Shown here: piece after piece, positions 6,959-49,692 of the stretch | Layout: each line of letters opens with the position of its first letter | Numbering within the stretch: position 1 is the first letter of the stretch | Source: Micrococcales bacterium | GTDB taxonomy: Bacteria > Actinomycetota > Actinomycetes > Actinomycetales > Microbacteriaceae | Length of the DNA stretch: 49,874 bases | NCBI GenBank assembly: GCA_016212425.1 | Contig: JACRGJ010000113.1 | Span: 1 to 49,874 of the forward strand | Direction: 5' to 3' | Program-made: the position numbers and the translations under genes | The notes under the pieces: model-generated | Seen by the model: only the letters and a program-made list of their open reading frames with translations | The model's database searches: none | What the model was told of the DNA's origin: nothing

Positions 6959-8061
6959 CCGGCCAACCCTACGGTCGGCGTGGGCGCGGCGCTGTCGCGC
7001 GCGTCGAGCACGAGGTCGACCATCCGATCGGCTCCGTCACGCACTCCCTGAGCCGCGGCGCGGGCCGCCAGGTCGGCGATGCCGGCGCGGTCGGCGAGCA
7101 GCTGCACCCCGAGGGTCTCGATCCACTCGGGCGTGAAATCCGCGTCCCTGACGAGGATCGCCCCGCCCGCCTCGACGAGGTCGCGCGCATTGACGGCCTG
7201 CTCCCCGTTGCCGACCGGGTAGGGCACGAGCACCCCGGGCACGCCGAGCGCGGCGAGCTCGGCTACCGCCCCCGCTCCGGCGCGCGAGATCGCGAGGGTG
7301 GCCACGGCGAGGGCGAGTTCCATCCGGTCGCAGTACTCCAGGATGCGGTAGCCGGCAAGCCCGGGGTCGGCGACGGGCGAGCGCGATCCGGTCAGGTGCA
7401 GCACCTGCCACCCGCTGCCGATGATCGCGGGCGCTGCTGCCGCGACGGTCTCATTGATGCTCCGGGCGCCCGTGGAGCCGCCGGTGACGAGCAGCACGGG
7501 TCGGGTGCCGTCGAGCCGGAAGCGCGCGAGCCCCTCCGCCCGGGCGGCGGGCAGATCGACCCGCTCCAGCTCGCGGCGCAGCGGCATGCCCACGATCCGG
7601 GCGTGCGGCAGCCGGGTGGAGGCGAAGGTCACCCCGACGAAGGAGGTCAGGCGCGCGCCGAGCCGGTTCGCGATGCCGGGCCTGGCGTTCTGCTCGTGGA
7701 TGGCCAGCGGGCGGCGCTCGGCGCGGGCGGCGAGGTAGGCCGGTGCCGCGGCGTAGCCGCCCACCCCCACCACGACCTCGACGCGGCGCTCCCGCAGCAC
7801 TGTGCGGACCAGGTCGACGGAGCGCCGCAGAGAGCTCGGGAAACGCAGGGCTGCCGGCCCCGGGCGCCGGGGGAACGGCAGCCGGGGAACGGTGAGCAGT
7901 TCGTACCCGCGCTCGGGCACCAGCCGCGCCTCGAGCCCCTCGGCCGTCCCGAGCATCAGCACGTGGGCGTCCGGCTCCCGCTCGCGCAGGCGGTCGGCCG
8001 TCGCGAGCAGCGGGTTCACGTGCCCTGCCGTGCCGCCGCCCGCGAAGAGGAAGGTGGTCAC
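6955..8061 (-). CDS. murG: UDP-GlcNAc:lipid I N-acetylglucosaminyltransferase
   Basis: Peripheral membrane GT28 enzyme that makes lipid II from lipid I. The N-terminal [14 protein letters not shown] (residues 4-17) binds lipid I; the UDP-GlcNAc region has [15 protein letters not shown] and later [25 protein letters not shown] with [10 protein letters not shown]. The 368-residue length is typical. GTG 8061 was chosen because it overlaps the ftsW stop (GTGA); the frame stays open far upstream only as a shadow of ftsW. Confidence 0.96.
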
Positions 8062-10909: not shown

Positions 10910-12010
10910 TCATCGAACAGCCCACTCGAGGTAGAACACGCCGATGCCGGCGGCGACGCACATCCCGCCGATGATCCAGAACCGCACGACGACCGTGATC
11001 TCGGCCCAGCCCTTGAGCTCGAAGTGGTGATGCAGCGGGCTCATGAGGAAGACGCGCCGGCCGCCGGAGAGCTTGAAGTAGACGCGCTGGACGATGACCG
11101 ACCCGGTGACGATGAAGTAGATGCCGCCGATGAGCACCAGCAGCAGCTCGGTGCGGGTCAGGATCGCCAGGCCGGCGAGCGCCCCGCCGAGGGCGAGCGA
11201 GCCGGTGTCGCCCATGAAGATCTGCGCCGGAGAGGTGTTCCACCACAGGAAGCCGATGAGACTCCCGGCGATCGCGGCGGCGACCACGGCGAGGTCGAGG
11301 GGGTCGCGGACCGAGTAGCACTTGCTCGCGACGTCGACATCGAGGTTCGCGCTGCTGCAGGACTGGTTGAACTGCCAGAAGCCGATGGCGATGTAGCCCG
11401 AGAAGGCGAGGATCGCCGAGCCGGTGGCGAGGCCGTCGAGCCCGTCGGCGACGTTGACGCCATTCGAGGCGCTGACCGCGATGACGTTGGTCCAGACGAC
11501 GAACAGGATGACGCCGAGCACCGTTCCGAAGGCCGCGAGATTGAGCCACGGGATGTCGCGGATGAACGAGACGGCGGTCGAGGCCGGCCGCAGGGAGTAC
11601 TCGTCCTCGGGGGCCATGAGCGCGACGATCGCGAAGGTCGTGGCGATCACGACCTGCCCGGCGATCTTCGCCCACCCGCCGAGCCCGAGGCTTCGCTGGT
11701 TGCGCGTCTTCAGGAAGTCGTCGAGGAAGCCGACGGCACCGAGTCCGACCATCAGCAGGTAGACCATGACGCCGACGAGCGTCCACGGCGCGCCGATGAC
11801 CAGGTGCCCGACGAGGTAGCCGAGTCCCGAGCCGAGGATGAAGATGATGCCGCCCATGGTGGGCGTGCCGCGCTTGGCGTGATGCGACTGCGGGCCGTCG
11901 TCGCGGATGAACTGCCCCCAGCCGAGCCGGCGGAACAGGCGGATGAACAGGGGCGTCCCGAGGAGCGTGAACGCCAGCCCGAACCCGGCGGCGACCAGGA
12001 GCCCGATCAT
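10910..12010 (-). CDS. mraY: Phospho-N-acetylmuramoyl-pentapeptide transferase
   Basis: Integral membrane enzyme that transfers phospho-MurNAc-pentapeptide to undecaprenyl phosphate, forming lipid I. About ten membrane helices. Signatures are [12 protein letters not shown], the acidic pair [18 protein letters not shown] (usually TDGLDG; the Thr is Ala here), [12 protein letters not shown] and the histidine motif [13 protein letters not shown]. Length 366 is normal. The start ATG overlaps the murF stop (ATGA). Confidence 0.96.
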
Positions 12011-13476
12011 CCGCCGTCTCCCGGCACGGGATCCCCGATCGGCCCGGAAGCGGCGATCCGATCGCCGAGCACGCGCAGCCCCGCGGATTTGGAGGACTTC
12101 ACGAGGACGACATCCCCGGGCCGGAGCACCTCACGCAGCACAGCGTAGGCGGCGTCGTGGTCCGGGACGAGCACCGACTCCCCGTCCCATGACCCCTCCA
12201 GTCCCGCCGCGTGGTGGATGTGGCGGGCGCCGTCGCCGACGACGATGAGCTGCGCGATGTTCAGGCGCACCGCGAGCCGGCCGATCCGGTCGTGCTCCTC
12301 GTCGCTGAACTCGCCGAGCTCCGCCATCTCGCCGATGACCGCGATCGAGCGCCGCTCCCCCGCCGTCAGCTCGGCGAGGGTCTTCAGTGCCGCCGCGGTC
12401 GAGTCCGGGCTCGCGTTGTAGGCGTCGTTGATGACGGTGACGCCGTCGCCGCGCTCGAGCACCTCCATGCGCCAGCGCTCGGCCCGAGCCACCGTTCCGA
12501 GGGTCTGGATCGCGCGATCGAGGTCGAGCCCCCGCTCTCGCGCCACGGCGAGGGCGGCGAGGGCGTTGCCCACGTGGTGCTCGCCCAGGATGCGCAGGCG
12601 CACGGGACGCGCGATGCCGTCGGCCACGACGGTGAACCGGGTGCCGCCGGCATTGACCTCGATGTCCTCGGCGCGGACGTCGGCGCGCCGGGACAGTCCG
12701 AAGCGGACCACGCGCGCCCGGGTCTCGCCGGCCATCTGCTCGACCCGCGGATCGTCGGTGTTGAGCACGGCCACGGCCGTCGCCGGGAGGCCGGTGACGA
12801 GGCCCGCCTTCTCGCGGCGCACCTCCTCGACGCCGCCGAACATGCCCGCGTGCGCCATGCCGACCTTGAGCACCACCGCGATGTCGGGCATGACCATGCC
12901 GACCAGGCGGGCGATGTCCCCCGGCTGACCGGCACCCATCTCCAGCACCAGGTGACGGGTGCGCTCGTCCGCGCGGAGCATCGTCACCGGCATGCCGACG
13001 TGATTGTTGAAGGATCCGGTGGGGGCGACGGTCGGGCCGTCCGCGGCGAGGATCGCGGCGAGCAGGTTCTTCGTCGTCGTCTTCCCGTTCGACCCGGTGA
13101 TGCCGACGACATCCAGCCCTCCGGATGCGCGCAGCTCGGCGACGACCGTCCGCGCCAGGGCGGCGAGGGCGACCACCGCATCCGACACCACGATCTGCGG
13201 AACCGGGAGCTCGAGTTCGCGCTCGTCGATCACCAGCGCGGCCCCCGCCGCCGCCGCGGACCCGGCGAAGAGATGGCCGTCGGTCTCGGCACCGTGCATC
13301 GCGACGAACACGCTGCCCGGCTCGACGAGCCGCGAGTCGGTCTGCACCGAACCGCTGACAGGGGCCGCGTCGCGGATCGGCACGGCACCCGAGGCGGTGT
13401 CCTGCGGGGTCGCGGCGGGAAGCACCAGCCGGCCGGAGACCCGCTCGGCGATCCCGGCAAGGGGGAGCGGGATCAC
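12007..13476 (-). CDS. murF: UDP-MurNAc-tripeptide--D-alanyl-D-alanine ligase
   Basis: Adds D-Ala-D-Ala to complete the UDP-MurNAc-pentapeptide. The N-terminal substrate domain contains [19 protein letters not shown]; the P-loop [13 protein letters not shown] is at about 126-136; then [33 protein letters not shown] and the C-terminal [10 protein letters not shown] and [10 protein letters not shown]. 489 residues, normal. GTG 13476 overlaps the murE stop as GTGA. Confidence 0.96.
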
Positions 13477-37981: not shown

Positions 37982-38584
37982 CTAGCGGTCCAGAGTAACG
38001 GAACTCGCCGATCCCGCCACCCGAGCGCCGTGGGCCAGCCGGACGGCCTCGCGGAGGTAGGCCCACCCTGCCCACCAGTACAGGAACGCACCCCAGATCG
38101 TCACTCCCCACCCGATCGGATTCGAGAACGGGGCGAGGTCGGGCACCGCCGCCCCGAGGAGCAGGACGGGGAACCCGAAGAGCAGGCAGAAGGTGCCCAT
38201 CTTGCCCAGGTGGTGAACGGGAAGAGGACCGTAACCGGCGTTGGCGAGCACCACGCCCAGCACGAGCAGCAGCACGTCGCGCAGCACGATGACCGCCAGG
38301 AACCACCAGGGGACGATGTGCGCCCAGGCGATCCCGAGCAGTGTCGACAGGATGAAGAGCCGGTCCGCCGCCGGGTCGAGAAGCTGACCGACCCGACTCA
38401 CCTGGCCGTATCGCCGCGCCACAAACCCGTCGAGGAAGTCCGTGATGCTCGACACGGCGACGATCAGCAGGGCGGACCCGTACCGCTCCACCGCGATGAA
38501 ACTCAGGAACACCGGGATGAGAAGAAGGCGGACGAGCGTCAGGAGATTCGGGATCGTCGCGATCCGCGAGCTGACGTCGGGCAT
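37982..38584 (-). CDS. CDP-diacylglycerol--glycerol-3-phosphate 3-phosphatidyltransferase-like protein (PgsA family)
   Basis: Integral membrane CDP-alcohol phosphatidyltransferase of phospholipid synthesis. The full motif D-x2-D-G-x2-A-R-x8-G-x3-D-x3-D is present (DFLDGFVARRYGQVSRVG, then QLLDPAADR). About six membrane helices in 200 residues. It starts NLLTLVRLLLIPVFL-like as in PgsA. Position matches pgsA2 (Rv1822) near garA. The precise alcohol acceptor (glycerol phosphate or phosphatidylglycerol for cardiolipin) is not certain. ATG 38584 is preceded by GGAGG 5 nt away; GTG 38590 is in frame. Confidence 0.88.
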   Translation of the reverse strand: MPDVSSRIATIPNLLTLVRLLLIPVFLSFIAVERYGSALLIVAVSSITDFLDGFVARRYGQVSRVGQLLDPAADRLFILSTLLGIAWAHIVPWWFLAVIVLRDVLLLVLGVVLANAGYGPLPVHHLGKMGTFCLLFGFPVLLLGAAVPDLAPFSNPIGWGVTIWGAFLYWWAGWAYLREAVRLAHGARVAGSASSVTLDR

Positions 38585-38817
38585 CGGCACCTCCGCTCCC
38601 GAGCATAGGGGGGCTTGATGGGCCTGACCCTCGCCGTCCCGGGGACGTCGCGTTAGAGCGGCTCAGTGGGCGCCGCCGCGACCCGTGAACGCCCCCGATG
38701 AGCGCGATTCGGGTTACTCTCCGGGGTGCCGCGCGGAGATCTCGGAATGGCCACGTCGTCCTCGCGGAGCGCGCGCTGCGGCGTCCTCCCCGGGGACCCG
38801 ACTGGCGCTCACCTGCG

Positions 38818-39085: not shown

Positions 39086-40612
39086 GTGACCACCGTCGAT
39101 CCGCTCCGTGACGCCGGTGCCGCCTTCCTCAACGAGAACCGGCTCGCGTTCGCGACAGCGCCCGTCAGGCCACGAGAGTCGCGGACTGCGACCCGGCGAG
39201 CCCTCGACCGCTACACGGAACTCGTCCGTCTTCTGGACACGCTGGTCGTTCTGGGAGCGTGCGTGCTGGCCATGCTGATCCGTTTCGGCGTTCCCGATCC
39301 GGCCGTTCCGGGGGCGGAGCAGAGGATCAGCCTGTGGGCGGGGGCGGCGATCATCGCGGCCGTCTGGCTCGCCGCACTGGCCATCAACCGCACGCGCGAT
39401 GTGCGCGTCATGGCGACGGACAGTTTCGAGTATCGGCGAGTCATCTCGGCGACCGCCATGGTGTTCGGGGTGGCCGCGATCTTCATGTTCGCATTCGACA
39501 TCCGGTTCACGCGCACCTTCTTCGTGATCGCCTTGCCGGTCGGGCTCTTCGGTCTTCTGCTGTCCCGCCGGCTCTTCCGATCCTGGATCGCCGCGCAGCG
39601 GCGGCGCGGCCGGATGGCGATGTCGACGGTGGTCGTCGGCCCCGAGACGGACGTTCGCCAGGTCCTCAGCCAGCTGGGCCCAAGCACGGCTTCGGCCTAT
39701 CGCGTCGTCGCGGCGGTTCTCGATGAAGCGCCGAGTCGCGTCATCCGGATCGGGGGCGAGACCTTGCCGGTCTCCGACCAGATCGACGACATCGCATCGA
39801 CTGTCGTTCTCCACGACGCCGACGCCGTGATCGTGGCGGGTCAACCGAGGGGCGGCGGTGACTTCATCAAGAGACTCAGCTGGTCGCTCGAGAAGACCAA
39901 CGCGGATCTGATGATCGCGTCGCGGCTCGCCGACGTCGCCGGACCACGCATCCAGTTCCGACCGGCGGAGGGTCTACCCCTCATGCACGTCGAGCTGCCG
40001 ATCTATGAAGGCGGGAAACATCTCGTCAAGCGGCTTCTCGATATCGTCGTCGCGGGTGGAGCGCTGGTCGCTCTCTGGCCGCTGCTGGCCCTCATCGGCA
40101 TCCTGGTTCGCATCGACAGCAACGGCCGGGCGCTCTTCTCGCAGATCCGAGTCGGGAGGGGCGGGACCCAGTTCCGAATGTGGAAATTCCGGTCCATGGT
40201 CATCGATGCGGAGGACCGGCTCACGGAGTTGGGTGAGCACAGCGACGGGAACGGCGTGCTGTTCAAGATGCGCAACGACCCCCGGGTCACCGGTGTCGGT
40301 CGCGTGCTCCGTCGGTTCTCCCTGGACGAGCTACCGCAACTGTGGAATGTCTTCATCGGTGAGATGAGTCTCGTCGGTCCCCGCCCCCCTCTCATCACCG
40401 AGGTCGAGTCGTATGAGGATCACGTCCTCCGCCGGCTCTACTTGAAGCCGGGTCTCACGGGGATGTGGCAGGTGAGCGGCCGGTCCGATCTCTCGTGGGA
40501 GGAAAGCGTCCGCTTGGATCTGTTCTACGTCGAGAACTGGTCCATCACGGGTGATCTGCGCATCATCTGGCGCACCGCGAAGGTCGTGCTCCGGCCCCTC
40601 GGGGCGTATTGA
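39086..40612 (+). CDS. Initiating polyprenyl-phosphate sugar-1-phosphate transferase (WcaJ/WbaP/CpsE-like)
   Basis: Loads the first sugar phosphate onto undecaprenyl phosphate for polysaccharide assembly. The 508-residue protein has about four or five membrane segments in the N-terminal half (LLDTLVVLGACVLAMLIRF to FFVIALPVGLFGLLL), a CoA-binding-like cytoplasmic domain (STVVVGPETDVRQVL), another helix at about 320 and the C-terminal catalytic bacterial sugar transferase domain: KRLLDIVVAGGALVALWPL, RVGRGGTQFRMWKFRSM, DELPQLWNVFIGEMSLVGPRPP and LKPGLTGMWQVSGRS. GTG 39086; weak ribosome binding site. The sugar is unknown. First gene after the long leader. Confidence 0.92.
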   Translation: MTTVDPLRDAGAAFLNENRLAFATAPVRPRESRTATRRALDRYTELVRLLDTLVVLGACVLAMLIRFGVPDPAVPGAEQRISLWAGAAIIAAVWLAALAINRTRDVRVMATDSFEYRRVISATAMVFGVAAIFMFAFDIRFTRTFFVIALPVGLFGLLLSRRLFRSWIAAQRRRGRMAMSTVVVGPETDVRQVLSQLGPSTASAYRVVAAVLDEAPSRVIRIGGETLPVSDQIDDIASTVVLHDADAVIVAGQPRGGGDFIKRLSWSLEKTNADLMIASRLADVAGPRIQFRPAEGLPLMHVELPIYEGGKHLVKRLLDIVVAGGALVALWPLLALIGILVRIDSNGRALFSQIRVGRGGTQFRMWKFRSMVIDAEDRLTELGEHSDGNGVLFKMRNDPRVTGVGRVLRRFSLDELPQLWNVFIGEMSLVGPRPPLITEVESYEDHVLRRLYLKPGLTGMWQVSGRSDLSWEESVRLDLFYVENWSITGDLRIIWRTAKVVLRPLGAY

Positions 40613-40614
40613 TC

Positions 40615-41364
40615 GTGACAGTCACCCCGCTCTCGCAGGAGCGCACGTTTCGGGGAGTGATGCAGCGGCTATCCGCTGCCCAGAAACCGGGGCGCGGGGC
40701 ACCGCCCTACTCACGATGGGTGAACCGTCCTCTGGGGCGCGTCATTGCGGCGACCGCCTACCTTGTGGATCTGAAACCCAATCACGTGACGGCCCTGAGC
40801 GCCGCCTGCACGTTCACGGGGATCGCGCTGCTAGCCCTTGTGCCGCCGGTTCCGTGGCTGGGGCTCGTGGTCGGTGTGCTTCTCGTCCTGGGCTACGCCC
40901 TCGACTCCGCGGATGGCCAGGTCGCCCGCCTTCGCGGTGGGGGCAGTCTCGCCGGCGAGTGGCTGGATCACATGGTCGACGTGACGAAGACCTGTCTCCT
41001 GCACGTCGCCGTGCTGGTCTCCTTCGCCCGATTCGGATACCCCGGTGGCCCGGGGACCCTGCTGCTCCCGCTGGGATACCTCACCGTCTCCGTCGTGTCC
41101 TTCTTCGGGATCATGCTCGCAGACCAGCTGAAGCGGTCCCGCGGCGGCGCCACGACAGCCGGACGATCGCGCGGCAGGCTGCAGACCCTGGTCGCTACCC
41201 CGACGGACTACGGGATCCTCTGCCTCGTGTTCCTGCTCGCCGGGTGGAGAGACGGCTTCGTCGTGGCCTACGCGGTGATGCTGATCGGGCACTCCGCGGC
41301 TCTGCTGGCCGCCATCGCCAAATGGTGGCGGGATCTCACCCGCATGGACCACAACGGCGGGTGA
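40615..41364 (+). CDS. CDP-alcohol phosphotransferase in the polysaccharide locus
   Basis: Integral membrane enzyme that transfers a phospho-alcohol from a CDP-activated donor. The catalytic motif is complete: DSADGQVARLRGGGSLAG followed by EWLDHMVD, i.e. D-x2-D-G-x2-A-R-x8-G-x3-D-x3-D. About six membrane helices. It is distinct from the PgsA-like gene at 37982 and its neighbours are sugar genes, so the acceptor or donor may be a polyol for polysaccharide or a special phospholipid (inference). GTG 40615 is chosen; TTG 40609 overlaps the transferase stop (TTGA) and is equally possible. Convergent with the AKR-like gene, 14 nt apart. Confidence 0.88.
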   Translation: MTVTPLSQERTFRGVMQRLSAAQKPGRGAPPYSRWVNRPLGRVIAATAYLVDLKPNHVTALSAACTFTGIALLALVPPVPWLGLVVGVLLVLGYALDSADGQVARLRGGGSLAGEWLDHMVDVTKTCLLHVAVLVSFARFGYPGGPGTLLLPLGYLTVSVVSFFGIMLADQLKRSRGGATTAGRSRGRLQTLVATPTDYGILCLVFLLAGWRDGFVVAYAVMLIGHSAALLAAIAKWWRDLTRMDHNGG

Positions 41365-41378
41365 CGCGCGGCGAGCGC

Positions 41379-42275
41379 TCAGTCCGACACCGGAGCGAGC
41401 TCGTCCACCAGCGCCTTGGTGCCCCGGATATGCGCGGCGCTCGACGCACCGAACACGATCGACTCGATCCTCGGCTGCGCGAAGATCCACTCGAGTGCCT
41501 CCCGCGGCGGGATGGCTCCCGATGCGAACACGGACATCGCCACCGCGCGGAAGGATCGCGTCTCGAGCACGCGCTGATAAGCCTCGATCCCCCCCGACAT
41601 CCGGAACCCGATCTTGTTGATATTGGAGCAGACGATGGGGTTCTCCACACCGGCATCCTCGAGAGTGTCGAGGGCGGCGGGCAGATTCATCGTGATGAAG
41701 CCCGGCTCCGCGCCGTAACGCGAACGCACATGACGCGCGAAGATGGCGAAGGCGTCCGTGAAGCGGAGCCCGATCAGCATGTCGACGACGACGTTCTGCA
41801 GCCAGACGACCGGGGTGTCCAGGCCGCGGAACATCGCCATCTCGGCGTCGACCAGAAGCGTGATCAAGCCCTCGACGTCCTTCCGAGCGAGTGATCTCCC
41901 GCCTCGCACAGCGGCATCGAGAAGCCCGCCCTCGGGCAGGAAGCGACGGACCGCGCCGAGCATTCCGCTCTCGGTGACGGCATCCGCGTACTTGTGCGCG
42001 TATGGCATCCCGGGATAGAAGGTGAAGCCTGCATATCTGTCGGCGTCGGCCCGGACCCGTTCCACGACGTCCGCGACTCGGTCATGTGTCGTGCACATGA
42101 ACGTCGTGATGCCCGTGTCGTACGCGGTATCGATCACCTCCATCACGGCGTCGATTCCCTGGAATCGCATCGCCTGGGCGCGCGCCTTCTCCTCCGACAT
42201 GTGGTTGACACCGAAGAATTGGTTGTCGCCCAGGAGGACTCTCTTCATGACGTGTGCGCGAGCGGGCATGGTCAC
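41379..42275 (-). CDS. Uncharacterised aldo/keto-reductase-like TIM-barrel protein
   Basis: A 298-residue soluble protein. Conserved-looking blocks are VLLGDNQFFGVNHMSEEKA, VIDTAYDTGITTFMCTTHDR, FTFYPGMPYAHKYADAVTE, ITMNLPAALDTLEDAGVENP, VCSNINKIGFRMSGGIEAY and ESIVFGASSAAHIRGT. The last and the DTAYDTG segment recall aldo/keto reductases, but the usual Asp-Tyr-Lys-His tetrad is not evident, so a different chemistry is possible. GTG 42275 has GAGGAG 6 nt upstream and overlaps the Gfo/Idh stop (GTGA), which implies coupled expression. I do not know a function for this family. Confidence 0.75.
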   Translation of the reverse strand: MTMPARAHVMKRVLLGDNQFFGVNHMSEEKARAQAMRFQGIDAVMEVIDTAYDTGITTFMCTTHDRVADVVERVRADADRYAGFTFYPGMPYAHKYADAVTESGMLGAVRRFLPEGGLLDAAVRGGRSLARKDVEGLITLLVDAEMAMFRGLDTPVVWLQNVVVDMLIGLRFTDAFAIFARHVRSRYGAEPGFITMNLPAALDTLEDAGVENPIVCSNINKIGFRMSGGIEAYQRVLETRSFRAVAMSVFASGAIPPREALEWIFAQPRIESIVFGASSAAHIRGTKALVDELAPVSD

Positions 42276-43348
42276 TTCCGTCTCCTCAGACCTCGTCGCC
42301 GCGGAGCGATGACTGCGGTCCCCTCGACCTTCTCCCCGGCGGCGTCCCGCGTGAGAAGTTCGAGCGTGCGATCCGTGACGGCGGCGCTCGAGAAGTCGTT
42401 CAGGCCGCGGATCGCGCCCTCGTGCACCCGCGCGACGAAGGCATCCAGTTGCGCGCTGTACTCCTCACCACGCAGATAGAACCGCACAGGCTCGGTGAGT
42501 TCGGTGGTGTACCGGACGGTCCAGCCCGCGTCGTAACCATCGACCGCCGGGGCCGTCTCACGCCGATAGACCTGGATCTCCTGACGGTCCGCGTAGATGC
42601 GGCCGGCGGTGCCCGTGACGGTCATCCGGGTGGTCATCTTCCTGAAGGACTCGTCAGACCAGTTGACCGAGAGCTGCGCGTGAACGCCAGCCGGATATCG
42701 GATGGTGGCGTAGACCTCGTCCTCCGTCGACTCGGAGAAGATGCGTCCCAGGACGGTCCCGCCGACGCTCTCCGCTGGTCCGGCGTACCAGGCCAGCAGA
42801 TCCAGAGGATGAGCGGCGTAGTCGTAGAGACTCCCGCCCCCCTCGGCGCGCTGGCTTCGCCAGGTCGCCCCGCGGGATCGCAGCACGACGGGTCCGTACG
42901 CCTCGGCGTGGTAATGCGTCACGCGCCCGATCGCACCTGTTTCGAGTAATCGCTTCACTTCGCGGAAAGCTCCGACGAACCTGTTGTGGTAGCCCACCTG
43001 AGTGACGGCGCCGCGGTCGAGGGCGTACGCGGCCAGCTCCTCCGACTCGACGGCGCTCAGCGTCAGCGGCTTCTCGCAGAAGACGGCGATGCCCCGGTCG
43101 ATCGCCTGACGGACGATCGACGCGTGCAGCCGTGTGGGCGTCGCAACGATGACCGCGTCGATGTCCACGTCCTCCAGCGCTCGAGTCAGGTCCTTGTACG
43201 TGGCGAGCCCGGTGTATTTCCCCAGCACGTCCAGCACATAGCCGGCGGGATCGATGACGGCGACCACTGACACCGCCGGGTGAGCCCGGATCATGGCCAG
43301 GTGGGAAATGCCCATCTTCCCGAGCCCGACGACAGCGACCTTGATCAT
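42272..43348 (-). CDS. Gfo/Idh/MocA-family NAD(P)-dependent oxidoreductase
   Basis: Sugar or cyclitol dehydrogenase. The N-terminal Rossmann fold starts VAVVGLGKMGISHLAMI; ATPTRLHASIVRQAI and the cofactor-site FCEKPLTLS (EKP) follow; GYHNRFVGAFREVKRLL and GGGSLYDYAAHPLDLLAWY (with the catalytic-type D-x3-H) are in the C-terminal domain. 358 residues, normal. ATG 43348 overlaps the upstream glycosyltransferase stop (ATGA) and its own stop overlaps the AKR-like start, so the three genes form one tightly coupled operon. Substrates of this family range from inositol to UDP-sugars; none can be assigned. Confidence 0.9.
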   Translation of the reverse strand: MIKVAVVGLGKMGISHLAMIRAHPAVSVVAVIDPAGYVLDVLGKYTGLATYKDLTRALEDVDIDAVIVATPTRLHASIVRQAIDRGIAVFCEKPLTLSAVESEELAAYALDRGAVTQVGYHNRFVGAFREVKRLLETGAIGRVTHYHAEAYGPVVLRSRGATWRSQRAEGGGSLYDYAAHPLDLLAWYAGPAESVGGTVLGRIFSESTEDEVYATIRYPAGVHAQLSVNWSDESFRKMTTRMTVTGTAGRIYADRQEIQVYRRETAPAVDGYDAGWTVRYTTELTEPVRFYLRGEEYSAQLDAFVARVHEGAIRGLNDFSSAAVTDRTLELLTRDAAGEKVEGTAVIAPRRRGLRRRK

Positions 43349-44475
43349 CCGGATCCCCTGACCTGCGCGGTGAGCAACTCCTCATACTGCCCCGCCACGT
43401 GCTCCCACGTGAATTCCTCGAGGTGACGCCGCCGCGCGGCGGCCGCCAGACGACGGCGGAGTCCGGAGTCGCCGAGCGCCGCGCTGATCGCGTCGCGGGC
43501 GCCACCTTCATCCCGGAAATAGATGGCGGCCTCACCCGCGACCCAGCGGTTGTAGGAGTTGTCGTGCGCGATCACGGCGTTACCCGCGCCCAACGCCTCC
43601 ACAAGCGAGGGGTTGGTGCCGCCCACGGTGTGGCCATGCAGGTAGGCGAGAGAGTGGAAGCGAAGGGACCGGAGCACATCCGGGTCGTAGACGGACCCGA
43701 TGAAGTCGACCTCGTCGCTCGCCGCATCGAGGACCGCCCGGTGATACCGATCCTCGGTGGGACGGTAATCGCCGAGGACGACGAGCCGGACTCCGCGGGG
43801 CTCGGAGGAGAAGCCCCGCACCAATTCGAGGATGCTGTTCTCCGGGATGGGTCTGCAGATGAGGGTCAGGTACCGGCCGGGAGTCAAGCCGTGAGGGACC
43901 AGTGGTGCCGTGGGTGCGGCCTCAACAGTGTCGGCTCCGTAGGTGATGGTCGAGATCTTCGACGCGGGGGCGCGGCGCCGCAGGTAGGTCGCGATATCGG
44001 GATGATCGGCGATCAGAGCGGTGCCGACCCGGGCACCGATGCGCTCGTTGACGAAGAGGATCCACTGGCGAATCAGGCCCCAGCGAGCGCGCGACCACTC
44101 GATTCCGTCCATGTTGATCACGTTCGGGATGCCGCAGAGCCGCTGAAGGACGTTGAAGACAGCCGTGTTGTAACCGAACGTCAGGCAGAGGTCGGGCTCG
44201 CGTATGGCGTGGCGGATCGACCGCCAATCGAACGTGGTCGTTCCGAGCCAGCCGTCCCGCGATACCGGGATCGTGATGCGCTCGATCCCCTCCCACTCGT
44301 CCGCCGTCGGCGACCCCGTTCCAAGCGCCTGGCAGTAGACGATCACCCGCCACCCCCTCGCCACCAGATGACGCGCGACACGCTCCGCGGCCGTCTCGAA
44401 TCCTCCGTATGCCGCGGGCACGCCGTGCGTCCCCAGGATGCGCACGGTAGGTGGACCGGTATTGATGCGAGACAT
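43345..44475 (-). CDS. Glycosyltransferase with DUF1972 N-terminal domain (GT4-like)
   Basis: Cytoplasmic GT-B enzyme. VRILGTHGVPAAYGGFETAAE is the hallmark of the DUF1972 domain found in rhamnosyl- and related transferases. The C-terminal nucleotide-sugar domain has YLTLICRPIPENSI, VDFIGSVYDPDVLRSL and GHTVGGTNPSLVEALGAGNAVIAHDN with the donor-binding Glu. ATG 44475 (376 residues) begins just before the domain; an ATG nine codons earlier is possible. First gene of the minus-strand trio; a TATCCT-like -10 lies upstream. Confidence 0.9.
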   Translation of the reverse strand: MSRINTGPPTVRILGTHGVPAAYGGFETAAERVARHLVARGWRVIVYCQALGTGSPTADEWEGIERITIPVSRDGWLGTTTFDWRSIRHAIREPDLCLTFGYNTAVFNVLQRLCGIPNVINMDGIEWSRARWGLIRQWILFVNERIGARVGTALIADHPDIATYLRRRAPASKISTITYGADTVEAAPTAPLVPHGLTPGRYLTLICRPIPENSILELVRGFSSEPRGVRLVVLGDYRPTEDRYHRAVLDAASDEVDFIGSVYDPDVLRSLRFHSLAYLHGHTVGGTNPSLVEALGAGNAVIAHDNSYNRWVAGEAAIYFRDEGGARDAISAALGDSGLRRRLAAAARRRHLEEFTWEHVAGQYEELLTAQVRGSG

Positions 44476-44586
44476 GCGCTCCGAGGCGGGACGGGGGAGC
44501 ATTCGGCGGGCCGGAGACGCGCCGATCGGGACCCCTCAGGATACACGGCGCACGGTTGCCGCATCGACTCCGACGACAATGGAGCG

Positions 44587-45621
44587 GTGAGCAGCCCTGG
44601 AACCGCGTTGACTTTCGTCACGGTCTTCTACGGGGCCGAGATGGACCTGCTGCGCCTTCAGGCCCGATCGCTAGCACGACGTCTGGATCCGGATGGCGTC
44701 CGTGGGATCGTCGTGATCGACAACGGCTGGCCGCCGGTGCCGCCCGCAGCGCGAAACGCCATCCGGACGAGCTACGGGCCTCTCGCCGATCGCGTGTCCT
44801 TCCTCCGCAGCCGAGACGTGGCTGCCAGCGCCCCGGCGACCGAAGGCTGGCGCAGTCAGCAGCTGCTCAAGCTGCTGATCGCGCGCCGTGTCGAGACGCC
44901 GTACTACGTCGTCCTCGACGCGAAGAATCATCTCATCGGTCCGGCAGATCTGACCACCTTCGTCGGCCCTGATGGGCGTGCTCATCTCGCCACGCACCCG
45001 TACACCACTCATCCCCTTCGGGCGCAGTTGGCTACCGCAGTCCGTTACCTGGGCGGAGATGACGACGATGTCGTGGCCGCGGAGTCCTCGTCGGTGCCGA
45101 CTGCGACTCCTTTCGTCATGAGCACTCAGCTCACGCTCGACATGATGCACGACGTCGCCACCACGGCGGGGGCGCGATTCGAGACGATCTTCGAGCGCTA
45201 CGGGCTGACGGAATTCCTGCTGTACGGCTCGTGGCTCGACATCCGAGGCCCGGGGCGGACGACGATCTACGACGGGGTCGATATCCCCTCGCCCACCGTC
45301 TGGCCGAGCCGCCGGAGCATCGCGGGAGTGGAGGCGACCATCGCGGAGGCTGAGGCGGCGGGCTCGGCCTTCTTCGCCGTGCACCGCCAGGCTCTGGCGA
45401 AGTCGAATCCGGAGGTGCGATCGCGTATCGCGCAGTTCTGGGCCTCCCGCGGATTGTTCTCCGGCCACCAGGACGCCGCACGGTTCATCCGATCATTCCG
45501 ACGCCACTACCCTGCGGCGATGCTGGCGACGAGGGCGGCCGAGCGAGTCCGCGAACTCACGAAGGCAGCGACTCCCGGTGCTCGACAGCTTCGCGGTAGT
45601 ACCGACCCGGGCCCCCGCTAG
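44587..45621 (+). CDS. DUF6492-type putative glycosyltransferase
   Basis: A 344-residue soluble protein starting ALTFVTVFYGAEMDLLRLQARSL, a GT-A-like first strand. Later blocks are GIVVIDNGWPPVP, FLRSRDV, WRSQQLLKLLIARRVETPYYVVLDAKNHLIGP (a D-x-K-N variant of the metal-binding DxD) and ERYGLTEFLLYGSWLD. Assignment to the DUF6492 group is from recollection of such motifs. GTG 44587 has GGAG only 2 nt away and GACAAT ends 6 nt upstream, so it may be leaderless. The last 65 nt overlap the end of the convergent Wzc-like gene. Confidence 0.72.
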   Translation: MSSPGTALTFVTVFYGAEMDLLRLQARSLARRLDPDGVRGIVVIDNGWPPVPPAARNAIRTSYGPLADRVSFLRSRDVAASAPATEGWRSQQLLKLLIARRVETPYYVVLDAKNHLIGPADLTTFVGPDGRAHLATHPYTTHPLRAQLATAVRYLGGDDDDVVAAESSSVPTATPFVMSTQLTLDMMHDVATTAGARFETIFERYGLTEFLLYGSWLDIRGPGRTTIYDGVDIPSPTVWPSRRSIAGVEATIAEAEAAGSAFFAVHRQALAKSNPEVRSRIAQFWASRGLFSGHQDAARFIRSFRRHYPAAMLATRAAERVRELTKAATPGARQLRGSTDPGPR

Positions 45622-46942
45622 TGCGAGCATTGTTGATGACGATCCCCACCACGTTCGCGCCTGAAGCCTCGAGCTCCCGCACCGAGTTCACGGCCTGTTG
45701 CCGACGGGTGCGCCGCGCATCGACCACCACCAGCACTCCGTCGACCATAGGCGCGAAAAGGCTCGCATCGGCGACACTCAACACGGGAGGGGAGTCGAGG
45801 ACGACGACACCGTATTCCTCGAGTTCAGCCCCTCCTAGAAGACTTCGCATCGACGCGGAGGTGACGACCTCCGCCGGGTTGGGCGGAGTCGTCCCAGAGG
45901 GGAGAACCGACAGTCGCTGGGTCCGCCACGGCAACCGGGCCTCGTGGAGGGCGACTTCGCCGAGCAGCACGGTGGTCAATCCGACGGCACCCTCGACCCC
46001 GAGGTAGGCGGCGACGCGGGGTCGCCTCAGGTCGCCATCCACGAGCAGAGCCGCGTCGCCGGCGTCCGCGAAAGCCACGGCGAGGTTGATCGCGACCGTC
46101 GTCTTCCCATCCCCTGGCAGCGAAGATGTCACGAGCAGGCGGTGGAGTCGGCGATCAAGCGACGCGTACGCCAGGGCGGACCGAAGGCGACGGAACTCTT
46201 CCGCGGTCTGCGCAAGCGGGTCCTGGTCGACCGCGGGAGTGCGAGACGATCGACGGGAGATGCTGCCGAGCACCGGCTTGCCCGTGAGCGCCGCGAGCGA
46301 CTCGGGGGAACCGAGACGGGTGTCGAGCGTCGTCGCCGCGAAGGCGATCAGCACCCCGGCGAACAGCCCGACGACCAGGCCGAGGGCGACATCGAGGGGC
46401 TTGTTGGGTAGCGATTGGAGACGCGGGATCGGCGCTCTGTCGATCACCTCCGCCTTCACCGTCGGGGCGGAATCGGAGCCGGTGGGCGCCACATCCCGAA
46501 CCACCTCCACCAGACTGCTGGTGACCGCGTTCGCCAGACGCGCCGCGTCCCGGGGATCGAGCGAAGACGCGCGAATCTCGAGGACGACGGTGCTCTGCGG
46601 GATCGACACCTGGAGAGAACGAGCCAGCTGACGCGGCGAGGTGTTCAGTTCGAGATCGTCGATGACGGGCTGGAGCACCCGGGAAGATGTCGCCAACTGG
46701 GCGAAGGAGAGCATCTGATTCTGAGTGTACGTCGAGCCTTGATTGAGATCGACGGCATTACCGCCCTGGTTCAAGGCGAAGTAGAGAGACGCGGTCGACT
46801 CGTACACCGGCGGGGTCGCGAACGACACAGCGAGCGCACCCCCCGCGCCAAGCACCGACGAGACGACGATCAGCTGCCAGAAGCGTCTCAACGCGACGAG
46901 AAGCGCGTTCGGTCCGGCGACGTGTGTGTCCGGATTCACCAT
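45557..46942 (-). CDS. Polysaccharide co-polymerase / tyrosine autokinase (Wzz-Wzc-like)
   Basis: Controls chain length and export of polysaccharide. The N-terminal Wzz domain lies between two membrane helices (about 22-43 and 184-206, with LPNKPLDVALGLVVGLFAG). The C-terminal BY-kinase domain has Walker A SSLPGDGKTT, A' ALLVDGDLRRP and B VVLDSPPVLSVADAS. It is fused in one chain, as in Gram-negatives and many actinobacteria. The C-terminal tail has only one Tyr pair (GRYYREA) where many such kinases have a Tyr cluster. ATG 46942 is used; TTG 46945 is adjacent after GAGGA. Confidence 0.9.
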   Translation of the reverse strand: MVNPDTHVAGPNALLVALRRFWQLIVVSSVLGAGGALAVSFATPPVYESTASLYFALNQGGNAVDLNQGSTYTQNQMLSFAQLATSSRVLQPVIDDLELNTSPRQLARSLQVSIPQSTVVLEIRASSLDPRDAARLANAVTSSLVEVVRDVAPTGSDSAPTVKAEVIDRAPIPRLQSLPNKPLDVALGLVVGLFAGVLIAFAATTLDTRLGSPESLAALTGKPVLGSISRRSSRTPAVDQDPLAQTAEEFRRLRSALAYASLDRRLHRLLVTSSLPGDGKTTVAINLAVAFADAGDAALLVDGDLRRPRVAAYLGVEGAVGLTTVLLGEVALHEARLPWRTQRLSVLPSGTTPPNPAEVVTSASMRSLLGGAELEEYGVVVLDSPPVLSVADASLFAPMVDGVLVVVDARRTRRQQAVNSVRELEASGANVVGIVINNARTSGGPGRYYREAVEHRESLPS

Positions 46943-47014
46943 CAATCCTCGTGCTGCGATAACCGGACGCCGGGAATCGATTCGGTGGGCATGATCACCC
47001 GAAAGGGGCCCTGT

Positions 47015-47065: not shown

Positions 47066-48385
47066 ATGAGTGCCCTGCTCGCCACGGGCGCGCGGCTCGC
47101 GACGATGTGCGTCTCACTCGTCTGCGGTGTGCTCGCGGCACGGCTCGTCATCGGCGAAGCTGGAGTCGAGTGGTTCGCCCTCCTCTCGCTTCTGGTCGCG
47201 TTGCCCGGTCTGATCTCCTTCTCCGACCTCGGCGCGGGCGCGGTCGTGGTCGGAGCCATCGCCACCTCCTCCGACGTTCGGCGCGACGAGCAGCTGATCG
47301 AACTCGTCACCTCGGTCGTCCGCATCATGCTCTGCTTCGCGGGCGCCGTGCTCGTTACGAACCTCGTCCTCGGCCTGACGGGCGGGTGGACGCTCATCCT
47401 GGGTAGCACCGGTGATCTCCCGGGTGCTACCGCGGGAGCCGTCGTCTGCCTCCTTGTCTGGGTCGCCACGGTGTCTCTCGGCATCTGGCAGAGGATCCTT
47501 CTGGGCCTGCGACGAAATCACCTCGTCATCCTTCTGCAAGGCCTGATCTCGCCGATCTCGCTCCTCGGCATCTGGATCATGCTGTCGCTCGGAGGACGAG
47601 GAGCTCGACCGTTCCTGGCCCTCGGGACCTTCATCGCGACGCTGGTGGTCGCAGTGCTCGGCCTTGTCGTCGCGCACCGCAGTACCGCGCCTCTTCTGAG
47701 GGAGACTGCGGGTCGGGTCTTTCATCCGCGCCGATTCCGGAGTGTTCGGGTGATGGACGTCGGGTGGGCGATGTTCGCCCAGATACTGGCCGCTCCGCTG
47801 TCGCTGACGGTACCGCGCTACATCCTCGCTCAGACGGCCAGCAGTAACGAGCTGGCTCGATACGCTCTGGCCGGTCAGGTGTTCTTCGCGCTGCAGGCCC
47901 TGATCGGAGCGGCCGGATTGACGCTGTGGCCGGCCTTCGCGCGAGCTCGTGCCGAAGGCGAACTCCGACGTGGGCCGGCGATCCCCTCATTGCTCTTCGG
48001 GGCGGGGGCGGTGGGAGCGACCACGATCACTGTGCTCATCGGCCCGTGGTTCTTCGGATTGCTGTCGAACGGGCAGCTCACGGTCCCCACCGAGCTGATC
48101 CTGTCCTTCGGAGCCATGGTCACCCTTCAGGCGGTGCTCTACCCGCTGGGGATGTTCATCATGGATGGGCCCGGCATCCGCTTCCAGGTCCTCCCGTCTC
48201 TCCTCTCTGCGGGATCCACTGTCGGATTGACCGTGCTTTTCGCTCCGCTGCTGGGGGCGCCTGGTCCGTTGCTGGCCTTCGCGATCTCCGTAGTGATCGC
48301 TCAGATCGTCCCCTACGCCCTCTACATCCGACGTCACCGTGACCGTCTCTACGGCCGACCTCGCGAGTCGATCGAGGCCCTCTGA
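47066..48385 (+). CDS. Wzx-like polysaccharide flippase (MOP superfamily)
   Basis: Polytopic membrane protein of 439 residues with about 12 predicted helices and no conserved catalytic motif. The beginning LLATGARLATMCVSLVCGVLAARLVIGEAGVEWFALLSLL and the FSDLGAG motif after helix 2 are typical of Wzx/RfbX flippases, which move lipid-linked repeat units to the outer face. ATG 47066 has GTGAGG upstream. Its 3' end overlaps the convergent polymerase gene by 37 nt. The assignment rests on topology and the surrounding wzy and wzc genes. Confidence 0.85.
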   Translation: MSALLATGARLATMCVSLVCGVLAARLVIGEAGVEWFALLSLLVALPGLISFSDLGAGAVVVGAIATSSDVRRDEQLIELVTSVVRIMLCFAGAVLVTNLVLGLTGGWTLILGSTGDLPGATAGAVVCLLVWVATVSLGIWQRILLGLRRNHLVILLQGLISPISLLGIWIMLSLGGRGARPFLALGTFIATLVVAVLGLVVAHRSTAPLLRETAGRVFHPRRFRSVRVMDVGWAMFAQILAAPLSLTVPRYILAQTASSNELARYALAGQVFFALQALIGAAGLTLWPAFARARAEGELRRGPAIPSLLFGAGAVGATTITVLIGPWFFGLLSNGQLTVPTELILSFGAMVTLQAVLYPLGMFIMDGPGIRFQVLPSLLSAGSTVGLTVLFAPLLGAPGPLLAFAISVVIAQIVPYALYIRRHRDRLYGRPRESIEAL

Positions 48386-49692
48386 GGAGTAGCCCCGAGG
48401 TTGCTCGTCTCCTCCCCGGACACGATGGCGGGGGCTGGCGGGATGGCAGGAGGCGCGAAGCCTGAAGAGACAGAGGCGCGTTGACCGGATCGTTGCGCAT
48501 CGAGAGCGACGGCGAGGCCCCCGACAAACCAGAGGAACATGCCGTACTGAGTGATCATGGCGACTCCGACGAGAGCGGGAATCTGAGCGGCGACCGCCAC
48601 GGACGCCGGGGTGGCGCGGCCTCGGACGACGAGCGTGACGACGGCCATGGCGGCCAGCACAACCAGGAGCAGCGCGGGGATCACACCGAATCGGATCGCC
48701 ACCACGAGCACGGCGTTATCGACCGAATTCGCGAAGTCGCCGAGGTAGACGCCAGACGAAACCGAGTTCAGCGAATCGGCGGAGCCGAAGGGGACGAGGC
48801 TGGGGAGGATGGAGAGCAGGTCGCCTCGGTATGCCGCACTTCCGGCCGCCTCCTGACCCGCATCGGAGAACACCGCGGTGAGCACCGGCAGCACGACAAT
48901 CGCGGTCAGGAGCCCAAGGGCGACGTACGCCACTCGCGCCGCTCGGGAGAGCGACCTCAGCAGCACCAGCGAGAGCGCGACGGTCAACGCGGCCGTCACC
49001 ATCCCGATACGACTCAGGGTCGCGATCGTGGCGATACTGACGAGTGCGGTCGTTAGCACCCGCAGCCAGCTTCGCCACGGAGACGCGAGGACGAACGCAG
49101 TCGATATCGCGAGCGACGCCCCAAGCGCGATGGAGTGGCCGAACGCACCCTCGGCGCGAAGGAATCCACCCCGGTCCTGGAGCGTCCCCCAGATCGCGTA
49201 CGACGGGCCGAGAGGAGGCAGTGCCACGAACGGATTCCGCCCCGTTCCGAACTCGACCAGCGCGAGGATCGCGGCGAGGACCGCGGCGACGGAGATCGTC
49301 GAGTAGAGGAAATCCGGGCGCACTCGTGCGACGACCACCCGCCCCCACAGGTAGGGAAGCACCCACTCCACCAGGGCGGTGACGGTAGAGGACAGTGCGG
49401 CTCTCCCGAGCGCGAAAAGGACCACCACCAGGACCGAGAACAGAGCGACGACAAGATCGGCCGGGGCCAAGCTCAGTCGATCGAGGTTCGAGACGACGGC
49501 GACCAGGGTGACGAGGGAGAGGAGAGCCCAGAACGGGCCGATCGTGACCCCGATCCACACCGGCGCGAAGAACAGCACCGCCATCCAGACGACCACGGTG
49601 AATCGGGGGAGGTGACGGCAGACCAGCACCGCGACGGCGGCCGCGAGAATCCCCAACATCGCCAGTGCGGCGGGCGCGATTGCGGCTGTCAC
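48349..49692 (-). CDS. O-antigen ligase/Wzy polymerase-like membrane protein
   Basis: A 447-residue protein with about 11 hydrophobic segments and a large extracytoplasmic loop (GTGRNPFVALPPLGPSYAIW to RAEGAFGHSIALG). The R-x-E-G-x-F-G-H pattern in the loop is common in Wzy/WaaL family proteins. It would polymerise repeat units flipped by the neighbouring Wzx. GTG 49692 follows GGGGGAG at a very short distance. A hydrophilic tail of about 50 residues (after ALDAQRSGQ) overlaps the flippase gene. Confidence 0.82.
   Translation of the reverse strand: MTAAIAPAALAMLGILAAAVAVLVCRHLPRFTVVVWMAVLFFAPVWIGVTIGPFWALLSLVTLVAVVSNLDRLSLAPADLVVALFSVLVVVLFALGRAALSSTVTALVEWVLPYLWGRVVVARVRPDFLYSTISVAAVLAAILALVEFGTGRNPFVALPPLGPSYAIWGTLQDRGGFLRAEGAFGHSIALGASLAISTAFVLASPWRSWLRVLTTALVSIATIATLSRIGMVTAALTVALSLVLLRSLSRAARVAYVALGLLTAIVVLPVLTAVFSDAGQEAAGSAAYRGDLLSILPSLVPFGSADSLNSVSSGVYLGDFANSVDNAVLVVAIRFGVIPALLLVVLAAMAVVTLVVRGRATPASVAVAAQIPALVGVAMITQYGMFLWFVGGLAVALDAQRSGQRASVSSGFAPPAIPPAPAIVSGEETSNLGATPQRASIDSRGRP

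Follow-up and report, generated by a model that had tools for sequence, protein, structure and literature searches.

The stretch of DNA analysed here, referred to as the window, covers 49,874 nucleotides of contig JACRGJ010000113.1 from a Micrococcales bacterium and contains a polysaccharide locus of the Wzx/Wzy type, as the earlier note on this sequence had suggested (Table 1). We focused on two minus-strand genes in this locus, which code for a Gfo/Idh/MocA dehydrogenase and for a protein referred to as AKR-like. The GTG start codon of the AKR-like gene overlaps the TGA stop codon of the Gfo/Idh gene in the sequence GTGA (ORFs 42275-41379 and 43348-42272). Another 4-nt overlap is located between the glycosyltransferase gene (44502-43345) and the start of the Gfo/Idh gene, and the three genes form an operon on the minus strand. 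The stop codon of the AKR-like gene is separated by 14 nt from the end, at position 41364, of a convergent gene for a CDP-alcohol phosphotransferase (CDP-AP). This gene starts either with TTG at position 40609, where it overlaps the sugar transferase gene that ends at 40612, or with GTG at position 40615. A second and stronger PF01066 gene is located at positions 37982-38590 on the minus strand (130.8 bits), and a third on another contig. The GTGA overlap, the 14-nt gap and the existence of a PF01066 gene distinct from the CDP-AP gene had all been described in the earlier note and were confirmed by the gene coordinates.

Table 1. Genes of the polysaccharide locus in the window, with positions, strands and supporting matches.
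Feature	Position	Strand	Evidence
AKR-like protein, unnamed family, 298 aa, GTG start	41379..42275	-	ORF; no Pfam/NCBIfam match; predicted AKR fold
Gfo/Idh/MocA dehydrogenase, 358 aa, putative dedicated partner of the AKR-like protein	42272..43348	-	PF01408 90.6 bits, PF22725 84.7 bits
Glycosyltransferase with DUF1972, 385 aa, heads the three-gene operon	43345..44502	-	PF09314 53.9 bits
CDP-AP, actinobacterial polysaccharide-locus subfamily, convergent neighbour	40609..41364	+	PF01066 35.8 bits; motif
Polyprenyl-phosphate sugar transferase, directly 5' of CDP-AP	39086..40612	+	TIGR03025 405 bits, above cut-off
Wzz and tyrosine-kinase chain-length protein, polysaccharide locus	45557..46945	-	PF02706, TIGR01007 above cut-off
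Wzx-type flippase, polysaccharide locus	47066..48385	+	PF01943 29.7 bits, cut-off 28.2
Wzy-like polymerase, weak match	48349..49692	-	PF04932 E 0.011, below cut-off

We regard the ORFs for the AKR-like and Gfo/Idh proteins as real genes, since AKR-like homologues of 66-80% identity are present in the same Gfo/Idh-AKR order on 80 other contigs. The glycosyltransferase at the head of the operon scored 150.8 bits against the model for Cps2T-type rhamnosyltransferases, for which the cut-off is 500. A scan for promoters and terminators yielded one promoter-like site (0.7 expected) and no terminator (2.4 expected). A DUF6492 protein is encoded at positions 44572-45621 on the plus strand (51.4 bits), and a 265-aa ORF without a family match at positions 44671-45468 on the minus strand looks spurious.

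Conservation and distribution of the gene pair

Relatives of the AKR-like gene were identified in at least 521 stretches of DNA. For the analysis of gene neighbourhoods, we selected 84 loci, of which 4 are from plasmids and 80 are from the most similar of the 521 genome contigs, so that the counts describe close relatives (66-80% identity); weak partial matches (L007-L009 and L016-L018, E-values of 1e-5 to 1e-3) were excluded as members. The loci span Actinobacteria, Proteobacteria, Acidobacteria and Bacteroides, as assigned from the record titles, although many are MAG contigs that are possibly misbinned (e.g. L038, Prosthecobacter). A Gfo/Idh homologue was present in all 84 loci and was located on the same strand in 83 of them, with at most 400 nt between it and the AKR-like match downstream. 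The single exception (L022) contained two small genes of the Alg14 and GT28C types in a space of about 1 kb between the Gfo/Idh and AKR-like genes; elsewhere these two genes stand upstream of the pair (e.g. L067 and L076). In 65 of the 84 loci, a start codon for the second gene was within 30 nt of the stop codon of the first, and overlaps of 4 nt were common.

A less selected dataset consisted of 13 members retrieved by genome searches (L002-L006, L010-L015, L167 and L169, with L002 representing the same contig as L023). All 13 had a Gfo/Idh gene upstream, including members with 36-39% identity, and in L169 the Gfo/Idh match ended about 1 kb upstream of the AKR-like gene. The distance matrices of the two proteins were correlated (Spearman 0.69, compared with at most 0.19 when the data were permuted 300 times), a correlation that joint descent and transfer alone could produce. 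The mean distance was 0.29 for the AKR-like protein and 0.37 for the Gfo/Idh protein, indicating that the former is the more conserved of the two. The adjacency in 83 of the 84 loci, its persistence in distant members and the correlated distances support, at the sequence level, the suggestion that the AKR-like protein and one subfamily of Gfo/Idh proteins form a functional pair, and the link between the two genes proposed in the earlier note thus holds.

The genes surrounding the pair were called with a simple greedy script, and the 27 loci for which no upstream gene was called are outside the counts. The gene directly upstream of the pair in the remaining 57 loci was of the DUF1972 type in 20 cases, DUF354 in 11, WecG in 5, GT28C in 3 and Alg14 in 1, such that 40 of the 57 contained a gene for a glycosyltransferase (DUF1972, WecG, GT28C or Alg14) or a DUF354 protein at this site. 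The downstream genes (47 of 66 scanned) belonged to mixed families, with GT4 types being the most common and CDP-AP accounting for 6 of the 47. Since the adjacent glycosyltransferase families vary by lineage and the downstream genes are mixed, no single glycosyltransferase that would use the product was found.

The distribution of the AKR-like gene is sparse and patchy. The gene was identified in 6 of 59 relatives of the source organism, with its own genome included, and in 7 of 396 genomes in a sample of the phylum (E below 1e-50), three of which contained a homologue of 36% identity. Searches of two classes, both proteobacterial as judged from the titles of the starting records, yielded, beyond the starting genomes, one further genome of 369 in one class and none of 385 in the other. 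The proteobacterial members are 66-71% identical to the protein in the window, and for this reason the gene looks as if it has been spread by transfer. On the plasmids of Palleronia, Rhodovulum and Bacteroides thetaiotaomicron, the pair is located side by side in polysaccharide loci and the AKR-like gene is annotated as 'hypothetical protein'. Along with a Novosphingobium plasmid, these make up the four plasmid-borne loci (L019-L022), all of which have the Gfo/Idh gene upstream. In one genome (G452), the AKR-like gene was observed twice, in diverged versions that share 71% and 58% identity with that of the window and each have a Gfo/Idh gene upstream (L168 and L169). The pair is also present in a Duganella species and in Salinibacterium amurskyense DSM 16400, the latter of which contains CDP-AP as well. 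No relatives were detected among the phages and viral contigs searched.

A search of titles and the beginnings of abstracts, with subscription papers mostly outside its scope, retrieved no description of the pair, nor is it described in the accessible portions of PMC7874193, PMC7725333 and PMC12419801. As far as the searched literature shows, the Gfo/Idh and AKR-like pair is undescribed.

Features of the AKR-like and Gfo/Idh proteins

No Pfam or NCBIfam model matched the AKR-like protein, and none of the 81 members of its family matched any Pfam family, including PF00248, at E<=0.01. Structure prediction, one of the checks put forward in the earlier note, gave an eight-stranded barrel of the AKR-type alpha/beta class, with a mean pLDDT of 80 and a pTM of 0.81 for a model based on the 81 sequences, in which residues 93-127 are unreliable (pLDDT under 50). 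Almost every one of the first 50 PDB entries in the fold search was an AKR, and the Foldseek match to 6hg6 had an E-value of 3.9e-6. VIA-align yielded a Z score of 18.4 and an rmsd of 3.4 over 235 residues for YghZ (3n6q), with the leading entries tied, and distant AKRs also headed the list obtained with a viral fold library. When its profile was compared to that of seven true AKRs from the same genome, a weak match was obtained, with a global probability of 74% and the strongest local match in residues 253-289, which correspond to the last two strands (hhalign probability 69%). PDB profile matches at E<=1 included the true AKRs 6hg6 (0.18) and 8hwn (0.58).

Several other matches were judged to be due to chance. 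These were PDB profile matches to a PPR design (4.4e-6, repeats) and to cytochrome c1, and an NCBIfam match to 'thiol peroxidase Prx-SUH' in 10 of the 81 members (best E 3.6e-7). In a scan of 10 proteins, two matches to the latter model other than that with the best E-value had bit scores of 16.7 and 17.3 against a cut-off of 298. A match to UbiX in one of the 81 members reached 18.7 of 108.9 bits and was also dismissed. The term AKR-like, taken from the earlier note, is hence used here for the predicted fold and the weak profile match, while neither a Pfam match nor a full catalytic tetrad goes with it.

The catalytic tetrad of AKRs consists of Asp, Tyr, Lys and His. In the profile alignment with the seven true AKRs, which is weak, the Asp corresponds to Met60, the Tyr falls in a gap, the Lys corresponds to Lys95 and the His to Gln160; a distant member (L013) has Gly at the Lys95 position and His at the Gln160 position in this alignment. 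In the MAFFT alignment, which is likewise weak, the Asp corresponds to Pro91, the Tyr to Tyr96, the Lys to Arg124 and the His to Gln160. Asp and His were thus replaced in both alignments, whereas Lys and Tyr were each retained in one. Lys95 and Tyr96 are adjacent and invariant in the 81 members, and may hold part of the old AKR function.

The alignment of the 81 members contained 73 invariant columns, and invariant polar residues followed every one of the eight strands at the mouth of the predicted barrel (N18, Q19; H64; H94, K95, Y96; Q160, N161; T195, N197; N220; S248; S278). Seven of these (N18, Q19, Y96, T195, N197, N220 and S278) were still invariant in a set of 15 members with identities down to 35-36%. 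Since polar residues are invariant after each strand, the AKR-like protein is likely to have an active site, albeit one that differs from the textbook AKR site. It seems to represent an AKR barrel with a rebuilt catalytic tetrad, and a role as a reductase is doubtful given the replacement of Asp and His.

Catalysis in Gfo/Idh enzymes depends on residues in the motifs EKP and DxxxH. The corresponding residues K93 (EKP), D176 and H180 are conserved in the partner protein, with the catalytic K/D/H invariant, and together with the PF01408 and C-terminal domains they place the protein in the Gfo/Idh/MocA family. A comparison of its model (pLDDT 89) with solved structures showed that the nearest relatives are mostly dehydrogenases of sugar rings and cyclitols, with Z scores of 37.9 for levoglucosan DH, 36.6 for scyllo-inositol DH, 36.4 for WlbA with UDP-GlcNAcA and 35.0 for GenD2; KanD2, KijD10 and DgpA were also among the relatives. 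The scores were below the cut-offs for the myo-inositol 2-dehydrogenase IolG (TIGR04380, 120.5 of 355 bits) and for the archaeal UDP-GlcNAc 3-dehydrogenase (NF040723, 92 of 450 bits).

Distribution of the CDP-AP gene

The CDP-AP protein belongs to the PF01066 family and contains a perfect copy of the motif D-x2-DG-x2-AR-x8-G-x3-D-x3-D, as already observed in the earlier note. With the model for phosphatidylinositol-phosphate synthase (NF045883) it scored 26.1 of 170 bits, below the cut-off. The signature of its subfamily, D[SA][SA]DGQ[LV]AR..GEWLDH, was present in 27 of 28 members, with the other member ending at the edge of the stretch.

The earlier note had proposed that the AKR-like, Gfo/Idh and CDP-AP proteins could jointly produce the phosphate of a polyol or cyclitol and link it to a lipid or polymer. 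The three genes adjoin in the window, inositol dehydrogenases are among the relatives of the Gfo/Idh protein, and a CDP-AP gene was located within about 10 kb of the pair in 22 of the 42 actinobacterial loci. The neighbourhood comparison suggested as a check in the earlier note showed, however, that most homologues (61 of the 84 loci) have no CDP-AP gene nearby, and that only one of the 42 non-actinobacterial loci does (L053, an Acidobacteria MAG); these per-locus counts of CDP-AP are lower bounds, as several loci include contig ends. The distance to the AKR-like match was at most 100 nt in 9 of the 23 positive loci. Within the family and order of the source organism, all 6 genomes with the pair contained CDP-AP as compared to 12 of 53 without it (Fisher p 0.0004, uncorrected for kinship), and a lineage-specific link between the pair and CDP-AP is therefore possible. 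Two of the 7 genomes with an AKR-like gene in the phylum sample of 396 genomes contained CDP-AP, and six more contained CDP-AP alone.

Whole-genome searches at E<=1e-10 covered 50 genomes with the pair, namely all 38 non-actinobacterial genomes among the 80 and 12 of the 20 actinobacterial genomes that lacked CDP-AP locally. No member of the CDP-AP subfamily was found in 37 of the 38 and in 9 of the 12, that is in 46 of the 50. Conversely, 18 genomes contained CDP-AP and no pair. In 16 of these loci (all except those in G049 and G054), we identified homologues of the sugar transferase in 7, of the chain-length protein in 13, although some of these were weak, and of either in 15. The CDP-AP gene and the pair converge in the window, and in G020 they are separated by about 60 kb. 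Moreover, a search for an inositol-1-phosphate synthase (PF01658) gave no match in the source genome, which is 95.9% complete, whereas it was positive in 6 of 14 control genomes; this weakens the suggestion of an inositol-phosphate acceptor. Co-occurrence of the three genes holds only in a part of the Actinobacteria, CDP-AP was rejected as a third member of the module on the basis of its distribution, and we consider a joint polyol- or cyclitol-phosphate pathway to be very unlikely. The genome-wide absences and the occurrence of CDP-AP without the pair, mostly in polysaccharide-type loci, make CDP-AP look like a separate element of actinobacterial polysaccharide loci that often shares these with the pair.

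Other arrangements of the CDP-AP gene were also observed. It overlaps a gene for a DUF1972-type glycosyltransferase in three loci (L122, L123 and L128) and directly follows, in six others (L066, L084, L093, L098, L135 and L136), a gene that codes for a large protein of 1026-1428 aa, in four of which it overlaps the gene for this protein of more than 1000 residues (L093, L098, L135 and L136). A related large protein (L087:1-3153) contains fn3 and weak polysaccharide-lyase-type beta domains, and a link of CDP-AP to a surface protein is possible. In one locus (L148 of G013, 7237-7978 and 11785-12881), the matches to CDP-AP and to the DUF1972 glycosyltransferase are broken into several frame-shifted pieces, due to either decay or sequencing errors, whereas those to the AKR-like and Gfo/Idh proteins are each continuous.

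Proposed function and comparison with known systems

We propose, with a probability of about 50%, that the Gfo/Idh and AKR-like proteins act as a module of two enzymes and modify a sugar that enters the repeat unit of a polysaccharide of the Wzx/Wzy type. A nucleotide sugar would be the most likely substrate, although a free cyclitol is also possible since the solved relatives of the Gfo/Idh protein are only 17-28% identical to it and include cyclitol dehydrogenases. On the basis of what is known for its family, the Gfo/Idh protein would oxidise a ring hydroxyl with a nicotinamide cofactor, perhaps at C3, the position at which some of the closest relatives of known structure act. The pairing and the fold suggest that the AKR-like protein would act on the resulting keto sugar, either by stereospecific reduction from the other face, with epimerisation as the net result, or by a non-redox rearrangement or epimerisation. 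The product might then be used by the adjacent glycosyltransferase. More tentatively, we suggest that the protein represents an AKR-fold family with a rebuilt active site, which functions exclusively together with its own Gfo/Idh protein, makes a rare sugar that has yet to be placed in a pathway and has been transferred, also on plasmids, across at least four phyla.

In a strictly non-redox version of the second step, the AKR-like protein could be a barrel epimerase, isomerase or lyase that acts on the keto sugar, a reading that we find conceivable but rather unlikely. The replacement of the tetrad Asp and His in both usable alignments is in line with it, as are the invariant His64, His94, Lys95, Tyr96, Gln160, Asn197 and Asn220 at the strand ends and the presence, at rank 41 of the fold list, of SmbA (7b0e), which we take to be an AKR-fold protein that is not a reductase. 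In oxidative deglycosylation, barrel enzymes act after the oxidation by a Gfo/Idh enzyme. However, it is the last two strands that match true AKRs, with the motif FGASS in the window and VGASS in L152, and AKRs hold their cofactor in this region; Lys95 may also correspond to the AKR lysine. Another explanation, for which we see little likelihood, assigns the AKR-like protein a non-catalytic or regulatory role alongside the Gfo/Idh protein, for instance as a stabiliser or a nucleotide sensor. While the near-universal pairing and the degenerate tetrad would fit such a role, the many invariant columns, often with polar residues at strand ends, are typical of an active site, and the AKR-like protein is more conserved than its partner.

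New sugar-making routes account for part of the bacterial polysaccharide chemistry that has yet to be assigned. If the two proteins do form a sugar-remodelling module, a single biochemical result would allow hundreds of loci to be annotated, since the rarely separated pair marks the product in many genomes; at least 521 stretches contain relatives, some of them on plasmids of marine bacteria and of Bacteroides. The AKR-like protein would also provide a case of an AKR barrel in which the catalytic tetrad has seemingly been rebuilt.

Known systems resemble the proteins of the locus in part. The eight-stranded barrel is shared with the AKR superfamily (PF00248; YghZ, 3n6q, and Cbei_3974, 6hg6), whereas the AKR-like protein differs by having no Pfam match, a replaced catalytic Asp and His and an identity of only 14% to 3n6q. 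The CDP-AP protein has PF01066 and the full catalytic motif in common with AF2299 (E 3.5e-7), PIP synthase and archaetidylinositol phosphate synthase, but its scores with the NCBIfam models, 44.9 bits for a cut-off of 180 and 26.1 bits for a cut-off of 170, were far too low. The Gfo/Idh protein has the same fold and the same EKP and DxxxH motifs as WlbA, GenD2, KanD2, KijD10 and levoglucosan DH, while the identities are just 21-28%, with 28% for GenD2, and we know of no AKR-fold partner of the present kind in the pathways of these enzymes. Finally, oxidative deglycosylation by DgpA and by NAD-dependent glycosidases such as SqgA also involves the action of a Gfo/Idh enzyme on the ring of a sugar. 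These systems are catabolic, whereas the setting in the window is a biosynthetic polysaccharide locus.
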